A stretch of DNA of 64,000 bases from Spiroplasma apis B31 (GTDB lineage: Bacteria > Bacillota_I > Bacilli_A > Mycoplasmatales > Mycoplasmataceae), in the NCBI RefSeq assembly GCF_000500935.1, contig NC_022998.1, forward strand, positions 682,001 through 746,000, read 5' to 3'. Below, in pieces: positions 40,812 through 50,950 of the stretch. Position 1 is the stretch's first letter; every line of letters begins with the position of its first letter. A program made the position numbers and the translations under genes. The notes beneath the pieces were generated by a model. It did no database searches. It was not told the origin of the DNA and saw only the letters and a list, made by a program, of their open reading frames with translations.

Positions 40812-41165
40812 ATGGCTAATTTAAAAGGAAACAAATCAAACATCCTAAATTTTGATACTAAAAAAGAATTGATTATCAAGCATTTTGATCAAAATTTATC
40901 TTATAAAGACCTATCAAAAATGTGCAATATTTCATATTCAACAGTTAGAAGAATGTGTGTAGATTGAGAAGTTTTTGGTGATGAGTCGCTTATTTCGAAA
41001 ACTGGAAAACACAATAAGCACAACGGAAAAATTAGAATCAAGTCAAAAGATCCAAAAGATAAGAAAATTGCAGAACTTAATAAAAAATTGAAATGATTAG
41101 AAATGGAGAATGAGGTTTTAAAAAAGTTCAATGAACTGATGGAGAATTCAGAAAAAAAATTATAA
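40812..41165 (+). CDS. IS3 transposase OrfA
   Basis: 117-aa helix-turn-helix protein: KKELIIKHFDQNLSYKDLSK then ISYSTVRRMCVDWEVFG, and a C-terminal leucine-zipper-like KKLKWLEMENEVLKKF. RBS AAGGAG before ATG 40812. Its end has a run A8 where a -1 shift would join OrfB, as in IS3 elements. Intact in this copy. Confidence 0.85.
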
Positions 41166-42030
41166 AGTATTACAAAACTATAGATAAATATAATAACAAA
41201 TACACGGTTCTTTCTTTATGTAAATTATTTAATGTCACAAGAGCGAGTTATTATCGCTGATGTGGTAAAAATAAACCGGATTATGAAATAAAAATAGATA
41301 TGGACTTAGCATATAAAATAAAAAATATATTCATGATAAACAATGGCATTTATGGTGCACCCAGAATAAAAATAATTTTAAATAATCAAGGCATAGTAGT
41401 AAGTCAATCTAAAGTTGCTAGAATAATGAAATTATTCATTTTATATTTAGTTATAAGAATAAAAAAGTTGTATAGAAAACCAAAAGAAGTCAAAAAAAAT
41501 AACTTATGGTCCTAATCACGCTAATAGAAATTGATCTTTGTATTCAAAAAATAAGCTTTGAGTTACAGATATTACATATATACCTTTCAATAAAAAATTT
41601 TGTATATTTCAGTGTTTTTAAAGACGAAAACACTGAATTCATAGTAGTTCATGAGGTATCTTTAAAAAAGGATATAGATATTTACAGAAAAACACTTGAG
41701 AAAGTTTCGTTTCATAGACAAGATCTATCTAAAAAACTTATTATCTATTCTGATAACGGAAGCCAATATACACCTATATTTGCAAAGCGTTATGCTAAAA
41801 AAAATAATATTATAATATCATTATCTAGACCATGTAATTCTATTGATAATGGAATATGTGGAACCTTTTTTTCATCATTAAAAGAAAAGTAAAAAACAAA
41901 ACTAAAGCAAAATGAGTTTCGCAAGTTGAAAATAGCAATTGACAATTATATAGAGTTTTACAATTATGAAAGAATAATGATCAAACACATGAGACCTCCA
42001 GCATATGCTTATTTAGATTCCAAATTATAA
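41150..42030 (+). pseudogene. IS3 transposase OrfB, frameshifted
   Basis: DDE integrase domain: RASYYRWCGKNKPDYEIK, NGIYGAPRIKIILNNQG, then IYSDNGSQYTPIFAKRY and NSIDNGICGTFF. Compared with copy 2 it has an extra A near 41498 (A8 for A7) and an extra T near 41600. It also has a TGA-to-TAA stop near 41891. Not translatable in full. Confidence 0.85.
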
Positions 42031-42101
42031 AAAAAATGCTTCAAACTTTGTTGAAGTATTCTTATAAAAAAACATTCTGTATACTTAACAAAATATATTT
42101 A

Positions 42102-42269
42102 CCTCTTTCTAGAGTAAAATTTATTTTTCCCAGTTTAATTAGTTAGTTTATATTTTTTTAGCATAACTTTTTTTTGAAAGAACTTAACCTAATTTAGGAT
42201 AATAATTTTTTAATAAAATCTGAATTAGTATTCTTAAAAAGAATAAGTAAGAAATATTATCAACTGATT
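42102..42269. other. AT-rich spacer after IS copy 1
   Basis: Nothing recognised. Confidence 0.3.
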
Positions 42270-42730
42270 TTTTTAAAATACTTTAAATACGTATTAATGT
42301 TAGATCATATATTGAGTAGTTGAAGTTCGTAAAACTACTTTAGATAACTAATAAAGATAAAAAATTATAAACAACAAGTGCATATAAATTAAATAATAAT
42401 CTAGACTACATTAAATAAGATAAAAGGAATCTACTAACTTTAATTGAATACAATCCTTAAGAAAGTATAATTTATAATGCATCATTGAGAGATATATTAA
42501 CTTGTTTTTTTAAAAAAATAGTAACCAAAAAATCATTGAAGTTTTGTGTCAAGTTAACTAATCAAAATGTTCAGAAAATAGTATTTTAAAAACATTTATA
42601 ATAAATGATTTTAAAGATTTATCTGGTAGTAAAGTACATAGAATATCAATCGCAAGAGCATTGAAACAAAATAAGCCACTTATGATTATGGACTAAATTA
42701 CAGCAAGTATAGATAAATGGTCTACTTAGA
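42270..42730 (+). pseudogene. remnant of an ABC transporter ATPase domain
   Basis: Broken frames still spell ESIIYNASLRDILT (Q-loop region) at about 42461-42502. They also spell DLSGSKVHRISIARALKQNK, followed by PLMIMD and ITASIDKW, at about 42616-42722. These match the signature motif and Walker B of peptide or lipid exporters. At least two stops and a frameshift separate them, and no Walker A was found. It points tail-to-tail at the intact ABC gene on the other strand. Confidence 0.75.
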
Positions 42731-42754
42731 CTCCCATATTCAAATTTAGTCAAT

Positions 42755-44359
42755 CTATAAATCTATAATTTTATTAAATTTTTTCAAAATATCACTATTT
42801 ACTTTATGAGAAATCATTATTATCGTTTTATTTTCATCATTAAGAAAAATATCAAAAATTATACTAGCAGTTTTTTCATCTAGCGAAGAAGTTATTTCGT
42901 CTAAATAAAATCAACTTTTATTTGACAATAATGATCTTATAATCGATATTCTTTGTCTTTCACCACCAGAAAAATTAGAAAAATTATCTTCAACCATAGA
43001 ATCAAGACCATTTGGTAATTTTGAAATTAAATCTTTCATATTTAATAGGTTAAAATAATTTAAAACTTCTTGCCTATTTTCATAATTATCATCAATAACT
43101 AAATTGCTATAAAGTGTACCTTTATTCAAAATACTCTCTTGATTCACATATGATGCAAAGTTTCTAATTTCTTTTTCTGCCATTTTTTTATCATTAATAT
43201 AAACTTCTCCTGAGTTTTTTGCAATTGGATTAAATAATAATTTTAATAAGGTTGTTTTACCAATTCCACTTTTTCCACGAATCAATATTTTATCACCCTT
43301 ATTTATTTCTAAATTAAAATTATTAACTGTAAATTTATTATCATTTTGAAACTTAAAATTTAAATTTTCATATTTTATTTTTTGCAAATCATTGATTGAA
43401 TCAATTTCTTTATTTTTTCTTGAATTATCAACAATTGTTTTATTTATTAATTTATAGTCATTTTTTAGTACTTTTTTAAAAGATAAAATTTTCATAAATG
43501 CTCTAATACTATTGTTTCCAAAAAATACATATGTTGCACTAATTGTAGTTAAAGTTGTAATAATCCCAATACTATTAATGAATCCTTTTAGATAAAAATA
43601 ACTAAATACTATTATTAAAATAACTTGACCCAAAAAAATAATTAGTTGATTTAAAAAAGAACTTAAAGACATAATGTTTTTCATTCTTTTATTTTTTTTC
43701 TCAAGTTTTAAAGAGTTGCTTTTTATATCTTTTATTAGCTTATTTGATAAATTCATAGTTCAATAAGTTCAATATGAATTGAATATATCTTTTGAAGATT
43801 GTAAAAATTTATCATTTTCTTCATTAGTTTTATTAACTGCTTTTTGACTAATTTTTGACATTGAGAAGGGAATGATTGTAACAATTATAGACAGAATCAA
43901 AATTGGCATTAAAGCAATTCAACTAATATATATTACTAAAACAAAACTCACAATAATTGCTAGTAAACATTTTGTAATTTCAAAAATGCTTTGAAAATAA
44001 TTATTTTCTATCTGACTAATTTTATTTGAATTCATATTTATAAATTCACCTGAATCTAAATTAAGCTGATAGACATCACTAAATGTATTTTTCGCAACAA
44101 TCTCTCTAAGGCGTGTATTTAAAGAAGTTAAAGCTGAATTAAGAATTAATTCTCCAATATATTCAAGTAATAAATGCATTATGATAAAGAAACATGAAAG
44201 TCCTGATCAATATAAAAAACTATTAAAATTATTTTCAATTGCTTTATCAATAATGAATGAAAAAGAATATGACATTGCCAAATAACACACATTACCTAAT
44301 AAAGTTGAAAATGTGTATGACATGTATTGTAATCAATTCAATTTATTAAAATATTTCAT
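42755..44359 (-). CDS. ABC exporter (membrane-ATPase fusion)
   Basis: 534-aa half-transporter: about six membrane segments in residues 10-290, then an ATPase domain. Walker A is GKSGIGKT (about 360), the signature FSGGERQR and Walker B WFYLDEITSSLDE, with Trp from TGA; a switch His follows in MISHKVNSD. No N-terminal C39 peptidase domain is present. RBS AGGAG before ATG 44359. It lies downstream of a 29-aa peptide gene and a terminator. Export of that peptide's product is the natural inference; a homodimer is expected. Confidence 0.88.
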
Positions 44360-44390
44360 AATATACTCCTATATCTTTTATTTTAAAAAT

Positions 44391-44433
44391 AAAAAACACT
44401 TTATTTTTTTTATTATAAAACATTTAAAGTGTT
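44391..44433 (-). terminator. Intercistronic terminator between peptide and exporter genes
   Basis: AACACTTTA pairs with TAAAGTGTT around a ~21-base loop, followed by T6 on the minus strand. Such a partial terminator is typical after RiPP precursor genes, giving more peptide mRNA than exporter mRNA. Confidence 0.7.
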
Positions 44434-44449
44434 ATAGTACAGAAAAAAA

Positions 44450-44539
44450 CTAATGATTTAAGTTTCAACAATTACCCATTTGCTCTAAAGCTTCTTGGAT
44501 AATTTCTGCATCTTCTAAAATTTCTAAGATATCACTCAT
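44450..44539 (-). CDS. 29-aa candidate RiPP precursor peptide
   Basis: Encodes 29 residues. The first 22 form an acidic amphipathic leader-like helix (SDILEILEDAEIIQEALE) ending in QMG. The last seven are NCWNLNH, a Cys/Trp/Asn-rich possible core. Trp25 is TGA, so the core exists only with code 4. A strong ribosome binding site (AAAGGAGCGG, nine or so bases before ATG) argues for real translation. Neighbours are an E1-like enzyme, an unknown protein and an ABC exporter. Product structure unknown. Confidence 0.7.
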
Positions 44540-44563
44540 TATTTCCGCTCCTTTTTAAAACTT

Positions 44564-45671
44564 TTATGATAACATTAATATTTTAATATTACTAAATTTA
44601 CAATTAATATTTAATTCACTATTAGTTAAATGATTAAATATATTGTAAGATAATTTTATCCAATCACTAAAAGTATCGATTTCCATCCATTCTAAAACTC
44701 TATTGTCATAATATCCATAATCAATCATTTTAATTAAAACTTTTTTTCATTTTTTATTAAATTTTTCATATTTTAATAATTCAAATATAAGATCTACATT
44801 ATTTTTAGAATACTTATAACATTTTAGTAAAACTTTTTTTACAAAAAAATAATCTTGACTAATTGAAGAATAGTTTTTAGCTAACAAATTGCAATAAACA
44901 TTCTTGTAATTAAGTTTAAGTATTTCTTTTTTTGTAAATTTTGATTCTATATATTTTAAAGCATTTTCTTTGTTATGTTTTTTTTAATTTGTAGAATGCA
45001 ATTAAGTTAATTTTTTCAAACTTACTTTTTGAATTAAGAATAAGTTTTTTCAAATATTTTAAAGCAATTGAATAATCATTTCTAACAAAATAACTAAAAG
45101 TATTTAAGATTGATAACCTTTTTTCGTATGATTTTTTAACCAATTTAAATGCTTTCTCTCAAAGATTTATTTTATATTTAATTTTATAAAATTTTAACGA
45201 ATGTATAATATGAATTATATAATATACATTATTTCAATCAACTTTAAATTCGTTATAAAATCCTCTACAACAAGAAACTTTAATGTTATATCAATTGGCA
45301 TTTCTTTTTGAATATATTTTATCTTTTTTTATTACTTGAAAATTTATACCTAAAAGTTCTCTTAATACTATCAAAATTTTTTTAGAAAATTTATCAATGT
45401 TGCTGTCATTGTATAAAATAATATAAATGTTTATTTCTTTATATTTTTCTTTTATCTGACAAAAAAACAAAATTATTGAGGTCATATATCTAAAAATAAT
45501 AGAGTTAGTAGCTGAAGATAAATTTTTATTTGGAATGTTTATGAAATGATTTTTATATCATTCCTTATCCAGTATATATCTTGCATACTTTTTTGTCTTT
45601 AATTGTTTAAAACCTCTAAAGCATTCAAGAATTTTTCCTGTTTTAAAAAATAATTTAAAAGTTTTTTTCAT
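44564..45671 (-). pseudogene. unknown RiPP-cluster protein with one frameshift
   Basis: Reads from ATG 45671 (KKTFKLFFKTGKILECFRGF) for ~230 codons. In an A8 run on the minus strand near 44978-44985 the frame breaks. One A fewer restores a ~368-aa protein ending in a TAA at 44564. Contains KVSCCRGFYNEF and a helical, Lys/Leu/Tyr-rich C-terminal half. No family recognised. It could be a true pseudogene, expressed by slippage at A8, or a sequencing error. Confidence 0.65.
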
Positions 45672-45738
45672 TTTTTTAATTATTAATGTTTTTTTGTCTA
45701 TGAAACCTTTTTCTTTATAAAAAATAGATTTTTTATTA

Positions 45739-46524
45739 CTAAAAAAAATCTATTTGTTTAGTAATTATAAATATAGAAGGTAACAACTCATGAAATTCAA
45801 TTTTGTTTTCAATTTTTATTAATAATTCTTCTTTTCCGGAATCAATATTTCATTCAGATTTATCATTAGGATAATAAAACTCAGGCAATGCAGTAATGTT
45901 TCCTATATAACCCTTAGATAAAATATAAGGTTTAGAAAAAATTTTAGATACTTGTTTAATAATATTTGCATTCGTTTTTCAATCAGGTTCATCAGCACAA
46001 AGTATAGAAATATCTGGTGAATAATTTTTAAAAATTTTGCATAATTCATTTACAGAATTAATTTTAGTTTTTTTTTTATAATTTTAGAGTCATTTGAACA
46101 TAATTCTTCAAGAATATCTACTTTGAATTTACCATTTTTTTTTTTTTTTTTCATTTATATCATCAATTAATATTATTTTTTTTATGTAATTTAATTTACT
46201 TATAGATAAATACAACAGACTCCCCATTGCACCACAACCTATTATTAAAATAGTTTTATCTTTTATACATTTCTTATTATTATATATTTTCAAAATGTTT
46301 AATTCCATTAAATGATATATTATGTTTTCTGCTTCGTTAACTGATTTTATTTTAAACTCATTTATAAAATCTAACATTGATTTTTTTGATTTTAAAAATA
46401 ATAATACTTCTATCATTTTTTTTGTCAAATTTTAATTTTATTGCTTTAAAAATTCAAAATCATCTATAATTATTTTCCCTTTACCTTTATAAATTTAAAT
46501 ATCTTTATTTATTATATATTTCAT
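45739..46524 (-). pseudogene. MccB-like ThiF/E1 adenylating enzyme, degraded
   Basis: Starts at ATG 46524 (AGGTG upstream). The N-terminal ~90 residues look like a small winged-helix peptide clamp (KIIIDDFEF, later FINEFKIKSVNEAENIIYHL). Then comes the E1 nucleotide motif TILIIGCGAMGSLLYLSISK with IILIDDI. Further on are SILCADEPDWKTNANII and SKGYIGNI, matching the ThiF/MccB pattern of a DxPD-type loop before a GYxG strand. Broken by a TAA at 46495-46497, indels near 46415-46440, an A17 run (46135-46151) and an A10 run (46068-46077). Confidence 0.75.
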
Positions 46525-50087: not shown

Positions 50088-50950
50088 CTAAATAAGCATA
50101 TGCTGGGGGCTCTTGTGTTTAATCATTATTCTTTCATAATTGTAAAATTCTATATAATTGTCGATTGCTAATTTCAACTTGAGAAACTCATCCTGCTTTA
50201 GTTTTATTTTTCACTCTTCTTTTAATGATGAAAAAAAGGTTTCACACATCCCATTATCAATAGAATTACCTGGTCTAGATAATGATATTATAATATTATT
50301 TTTTTTAGCATAACGCTTTGCAAATATAGATGTATATTGATTTCCGTTATCAGAATGGATAATAAGTTTCTTAGATAGATCTTGTCTATGAAGCGAAGCT
50401 TTCTCAAGTGTTTTTCTGTAAATATCTATGTCATTTTTTAAAGATACCTCATGACCTACTATGAATCCAGTGTTTGCGTCTTTCAAAACACTTAAATATG
50501 CAAATTTTTTATTGAAAGGTATATATGTAATATCTGTAACTCAAAGCTCATTTTTTGAATACAAAGATCGATTTCTATTAACATGATTAGGACCATAAGT
50601 TATTTTTTTGACTTCTTTTGGTTTTCTATACATCTTTTTAATTCTTATAACTGAATATAAATTGAATAATTTTATTATTCTAGCAACTTTAGATTGACTT
50701 ACTACTATGCCTTAATTATTTAAAATTATTTTTATTCTGGGTGCACCATAAATTCCATTGTTTATTATAAATAAATTCTTTATTTTATATGCTAAGTCCA
50801 TATCTATTTTTGTTTCATAATCCGGTTTATTTTTACCACATCAGCGATAACAACTTGCTCTTGTGACATTAAATAATTTACATAAAGAAAGAACCGTGTA
50901 TTTTCTATTATATTTATCTATAGTTTTGTAATACTTTATGATTTTTTTTT
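50088..50950 (-). pseudogene. IS3 OrfB with nonsense and frameshift
   Basis: DDE domain (IIHSDNGNQYTSIFAKRY, NSIDNGMCETFFSSLKEE) is in one frame. However, Gln CAA has become TAA at 50712-50714, and a one-base deletion near 50110 shortens the C-terminus to HKSPQHMLI. Confidence 0.85.

Follow-up and report, generated by a model that had tools for sequence, protein, structure and literature searches.

A probable ThiF-like RiPP cluster, apparently decayed in Spiroplasma apis, with an intact relative on plasmids of Lactobacillus helsingborgensis

Spiroplasma apis B31, a honeybee bacterium, carries a four-gene locus that is probably a horizontally acquired RiPP cluster built around a ThiF-like adenylyltransferase, forming a subfamily of its own, with an enzyme that appears to be dead in S. 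apis and would be macrocyclizing in working relatives. The cluster is apparently a real but undescribed member of a known peptide-modifying class, and the best reading of the sequences is that the subfamily is new within the ThiF-like RiPP systems, where its relatives are GrcB, EnfB and IndF; no description of it was found in the literature searched, the coverage of which was limited. A wider reading, which includes the claim that mollicutes had not been seen to carry such a system before, is held more tentatively, with somewhat less than even confidence in the whole taken jointly. Direct support comes from the homology of three proteins and the C-terminal motif of the peptide between Spiroplasma and Lactobacillus, from strict co-occurrence of the parts, and from the signs of movement and of decay in S. 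apis.

The window, the whole stretch of DNA that was analysed, comprises 64,000 nucleotides (positions 682001-746000 of the 1,160,554-base single-contig S. apis B31 genome). Read in code 4, its minus strand encodes an E1/ThiF-like enzyme, a conserved unknown protein (hereafter the partner protein), a 29-codon peptide and an ABC exporter; each element listed by the first-pass annotation is present, in the order that it gave. The features are listed below in window coordinates, where G000 is S. apis and G019 is a second Spiroplasma genome, very likely that of S. turonicum.

About 46524-45655, minus strand: E1/ThiF-like RiPP enzyme gene, a pseudogene, 94% identical in DNA to the open frame of G019 (300 aa)
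About 45671-44564, minus strand: partner protein gene, frameshifted near 44985, homologous to a 393-aa Lactobacillus protein
44539-44450, minus strand: precursor peptide gene, 29 aa, ending in GNCWNLNH, with matches in G000 and G019 only
44395-44433, minus strand: inverted repeat and T-run 3' of the peptide gene, a possible terminator judged from sequence
44359-42755, minus strand: ABC exporter, intact, 534 aa, with PF00664 and PF00005
42134-46584, no strand assigned: block common to S. apis and G019 with 90% identity (blastn), differing in genomic place

The locus is more than a chance arrangement, because its parts recur jointly in a second Spiroplasma and on Lactobacillus plasmids. Insertion-sequence genes flank it on both sides in S. 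apis. An IS3-type element is present there in several copies (40812-42030, plus strand; 50088-50633, minus strand; L084:2701-4016), of which one is broken and adjoins the cluster and one lies directly 3' of recA. Just behind the exporter, on the opposite strand and within the block common to G019, lies the remnant of a further ABC ATPase (42605-42720, plus strand; ...RISIARALKQNKPLMIMD.ITASID...). A search of the cluster region against Rfam gave no match.

The identity of the enzyme was assessed from the G019 and Lactobacillus proteins. The best match to a solved structure is MccB, with E values of 3e-12 (G019), 6e-10 (Lactobacillus) and 1e-16 (joint profile); the second solved match of the G019 enzyme is PaaA (E value of 0.0012, query 31-151). 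The ThiF family PF00899 is matched with E values of 9e-14 and 2e-12, respectively, and the MoeB/ThiF equivalog cut-off is missed by a wide interval (best scores of 55.7 and 48.9 bits, respectively, against the 159 required). Among solved enzymes, this one is thus closest to MccB, as was first proposed, and not to the MoeB/ThiF proteins of cofactor synthesis. About 85 residues preceding the E1 domain align between the two lineages, as a clamp or RRE domain would, and the PaaA match begins inside this segment. The two enzymes share a motif of their own, LPEFYYPN, are shorter than the MccB of Escherichia coli ATCC 25922, the locus of which has a codon run for MRTGNAN upstream, and lack the C-terminal CxxC pairs that E. 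coli MccB and two relatives possess. Of the ATP-site residues, Arg, Lys and Asp are all retained in the Lactobacillus enzyme, Arg is replaced by Met in that of G019 (NLQMQ), and the motif is deleted in S. apis. Single-sequence structure predictions for fragments from the window were poor (pLDDT of 58 and 49).

A class-wide profile search, in a class that seemingly excludes the Lactobacillales, returned for the most part ordinary enzymes of ThiF/MoeB type and yielded no additional full-length member, and viral contigs and a phage collection gave no match. Several MccB-like sequences were encountered elsewhere. In two mollicutes of the order to which S. apis belongs, an MccB-like E1 domain is fused to an MccF-type S66 peptidase in one long open reading frame (L022:5071-7062, plus strand, contig CASEIC010000029.1 of an uncultured Mycoplasma, and L023:5032-6966, minus strand), possibly combining maker and protector in one protein. 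In G307 (L024:4340-6172, minus strand) a transposase gene of the IS30 type interrupts an MccB-like E1 gene that has CxxC motifs. An alphaproteobacterial metagenome-assembled genome (L031:6698-11956, plus strand) has a microcin C-like arrangement in which an MFS transporter gene and two ATP-grasp-like genes come after an MccB-like gene (352 aa), and Borrelia and Borreliella plasmids carry MccB-like ThiF-family sequences, some of them in pieces or unannotated.

The enzyme gene, the peptide and the partner protein are found only, and always together, in S. apis and G019, that is in two of the 20 genomes of the genus and two of the 320 of the order. The G019 enzyme frame is open over 300 aa, the peptide (MNDILEILEDAEIIPEALEQMGNCWNLNH) and the exporter are intact, and the partner gene has one in-frame TAA. 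The Met in place of the ATP-site Arg and the in-frame TAA suggest that the G019 copy may be failing too. The common block of 4.5 kb is 90% identical between the two species, whereas recA is 78% identical, and its surroundings differ: in G019 it sits between rny and recA, whereas in S. apis recA lies at 352.8 kb, with an insertion sequence after it, and the cluster is far off at about 725-728 kb. The simplest reading of the two identities and the different genomic places is that the cluster was acquired horizontally and has moved between genomes.

To judge from its sequence, the S. apis enzyme gene is dead and this copy of the cluster is decayed. No single frame spans the gene, which differs from the open G019 copy by seven indels; among these, about 29 nt net are missing at a poly-A tract in the position expected for the catalytic NLxxQ motif. 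The matching stretch contains 14 stop codons, of which four are TGA and are read through in code 4. A single frame slip does not account for this pattern, and the first-pass annotation had missed the death of the gene. A PF00899 search of the S. apis genome gave no match because the enzyme gene is broken. The partner gene is also frameshifted, and the peptide and exporter genes are intact. Sequencing error was considered as a cause of the frameshifts and was rejected: the genome was sequenced with Illumina technology (PMC3886961) and the genes neighbouring the cluster are intact, which makes homopolymer error unlikely and decay the better explanation.

There is about an even chance that the cluster is now functionless in Spiroplasma, a transferred island in the course of decay in which the peptide and exporter genes are intact merely for lack of time. 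The broken enzyme and partner genes of S. apis, the two lesions of G019 and the insertion-sequence genes on both sides are consistent with such an island. However, both species keep an intact peptide gene and an intact exporter gene, with dN/dS values between S. apis and G019 of 0.11 for the peptide, where there are five changes only, and 0.21 for the exporter, and the G019 enzyme frame is open over 300 aa. The island explanation bears on whether the cluster is used today, and does not conflict with the identification of the system as a ThiF-like RiPP cluster.

A tblastn search with the G019 enzyme against 72,556 plasmids matched only two records, both from honeybee Lactobacillus helsingborgensis (NZ_CP084390.1, locus at 41358-45176, and NZ_CP084385.1). 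The enzyme is 25% identical to that of G019 over 98% of the query. All of the genes are intact, in the order peptide, E1, partner and ABC exporter, and the annotation lists a ThiF-family protein, then a 393-aa hypothetical protein and then an ABC transporter. The 393-aa protein matches the Spiroplasma partner protein in pairwise comparison (E values of 6e-7 for S. apis and 7e-8 for G019), and the exporters of S. apis and L. helsingborgensis align end to end with 26% identity. The peptide gene itself, of 26 codons, is unannotated and lies just upstream of the enzyme gene (MEAIDLSSLEVSSAIGQAGTCWTLWN), with a GGGAGG site 5' and a strong terminator 3'. The locus thus resembles that of Spiroplasma in its three homologous proteins in the same order and in the core motif of its peptide, and differs from it in that the peptide gene precedes the enzyme rather than the exporter and ends in Asn. 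From these sequences the two appear to be the same subfamily.

The same plasmid carries a lantibiotic dehydratase gene (L057:15992-16879, plus strand) about 4.3 kb downstream of the ABC gene, and therefore holds more than one peptide-modifying system. A further plasmid cluster, from Lactobacillus sp. JM1 (L087:1393-7768, plus strand), is TOMM-like, with a 47-aa precursor containing SCSGCQ, two unknown proteins, a ThiF-like protein, a protein that is YcaO-like by eye and two ABC genes; it was set aside as a relative on account of the YcaO-like protein and the different precursor.

The S. apis peptide (MSDILEILEDAEIIQEALEQMGNCWNLNH) is encoded at 44539-44450, with a GGAG ribosome site about 8 nt before the ATG. 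Its matches (97/90%, self/cross) come from S. apis and G019 only; weak matches in other Mycoplasmatales (E values of 0.05-0.4) fall mostly in the leader and were set aside. The C-terminal endings are GNCWNLNH in Spiroplasma and GTCWTLWN in L. helsingborgensis, with G, C, W and L common to both at equal distances from the stop codon. Cys at position -6 and Trp at -5 are therefore kept across the lineages, while the last residue is His, as reported initially for S. apis and now seen in both Spiroplasma copies, or Asn in L. helsingborgensis. A short ATG frame with a G.CW.L.. ending occurs exactly once at each of the three loci, and dinucleotide shuffling of the Lactobacillus locus gave no such ending in 1000 trials. 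The shuffle result and the shared ending are together the strongest indication that the peptide belongs to the system. Homologous loci, in G019 and in L. helsingborgensis, do carry a conserved peptide gene, although 'conserved' here describes few sequences from two precursor lineages, which counts against the preferred reading. The terminator proposed after the peptide gene is plausible in that the 9-bp inverted repeat and T-run are kept in G019, but the repeat folds no better than shuffled sequences (z of -0.33) and was not flagged by a terminator scanner.

In characterized ThiF-like RiPP enzymes, an N-terminal RRE binds the leader, the carboxylate is adenylated and a nucleophile attacks; the products are a phosphoramidate for MccB, a Glu-Cys thiolactone for GrcB, an imide for EnfB and a Trp indolylamide for IndF (PMC12150305, PMC12250964). 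By homology with MccB and its relatives, the precursor of 26-29 aa would be bound through its leader by the N-terminal part of the E1-like enzyme and adenylated at its C-terminal carboxylate by the E1 fold, using ATP. Following GrcB and IndF, the adenylate may then be attacked within the same peptide by the Cys six residues from the end or by the adjacent Trp, giving a ring, either a thiolactone or an indolylamide, with the loss of 18 Da. Given that Cys and Trp are kept in both lineages and that the last residue is Asn in one and His in the other, our best guess is a ring that joins the C-terminal carboxylate either to Cys, spanning six residues, or to Trp, spanning five; an Asn-specific reaction of the microcin C kind is less likely. 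The product would be carried out by the ABC exporter, the S. apis version of which has both membrane (PF00664, E value of 1e-15) and ATPase (PF00005, 9e-23) domains. The exporter has no C39 peptidase domain and no leader protease is encoded within the cluster, which, like the lesions of G019, speaks against the proposed scheme; the partner protein, which has no Pfam, NCBIfam or PDB match, may have an accessory part in modification, a role in leader removal or one in protecting the cell.

Two other chemistries were weighed. Microcin C-type chemistry would join a nucleotide via a P-N bond to the C-terminal residue and yield a Trojan-horse peptide-nucleotide. MccB is the closest solved enzyme and the Lactobacillus precursor ends in Asn, yet the His of the Spiroplasma precursors cannot form the succinimide of the MccB mechanism (PMC12250964), the precursors are 26-29 aa long, the enzymes lack CxxC pairs, and neither an MFS exporter nor MccE/MccF-type genes lie beside any of the three loci; we consider this chemistry unlikely. 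The second is TOMM-like: the E1-like protein would be only a docking or leader-binding partner, a role that such proteins play in TOMM clusters (PMC12150305), and the partner protein would be a diverged cyclodehydratase converting Cys to an azoline. The conserved core Cys and the missing ATP-site Arg of the G019 enzyme fit this scheme, but the Lactobacillus enzyme retains its ATP-site residues, there is a single Cys and no dehydrogenase, and searches of Pfam and NCBIfam found no YcaO match in the partner protein or the exporter, where a very distant YcaO could escape the profiles. We regard the TOMM-like scheme as likewise unlikely, and retain macrocyclization by a ThiF-like adenylyltransferase as the preferred reading.

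The class of ThiF-like RiPP enzymes is small but growing, and its characterized subfamilies have each yielded a different chemistry. To this class the present locus contributes a precursor motif (G.CW.L..) and a conserved partner protein, both of them new, together with a compact version that is intact in L. helsingborgensis; it also suggests that such clusters reach wall-less bacteria, move among insect-associated species and decay there.

Among known systems, microcin C (MccA/MccB; PDB entries 3h5n and 6om4) offers the closest solved enzyme, an E1 fold with an N-terminal extension, together with an adjacent small precursor gene and an exporter. Its precursor is usually of 7 aa and Asn-ended, whereas those described here are of 26-29 aa with a G.CW.L.. 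core and His or Asn last, and it has an MFS exporter, MccE/F and CxxC pairs where our cluster has an ABC exporter, a shorter enzyme and the additional partner protein. The label 'microcin C7-like' given in the first-pass annotation is consequently wrong, with no heptapeptide, MFS exporter, MccE/F or zinc cysteines and no conserved last residue (Asn included), even though co-occurrence, the shared core and the MccB match uphold its grouping of peptide, enzyme and exporter into one MccB-like RiPP cluster. The ind cluster of Streptococcus (IndF; Trp indolylamide; PMC12150305) likewise pairs a ThiF-like enzyme with a short leader-core precursor with Trp near its C-terminus and an exporter, but has the core NWYFI and an M16 peptidase, whereas our cluster has another core, with Cys, and the partner protein in place of an M16 peptidase. 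The grc cluster (GrcB; Glu-Cys thiolactone; PMC12250964) has in common the ThiF-like enzyme and a core Cys, but links an inner Glu with a C-terminal Cys and includes radical SAM enzymes and a separate RRE, whereas here the Cys is not C-terminal and none of those partners is present. Enterofaecin (EnfB; macrocyclic imide; PMC12250964) resembles the cluster in a ThiF-like enzyme acting on the C-terminal carboxylate, a short precursor and ABC transport genes, and differs in its WWIVI core and its partner genes. The core motifs and partners of these three systems, M16 peptidase and radical SAM enzymes among them, were not found at our loci. Taken together, the cluster sits nearer to the wider group of ThiF-like RiPP enzymes represented by GrcB, EnfB and IndF than to microcin C.
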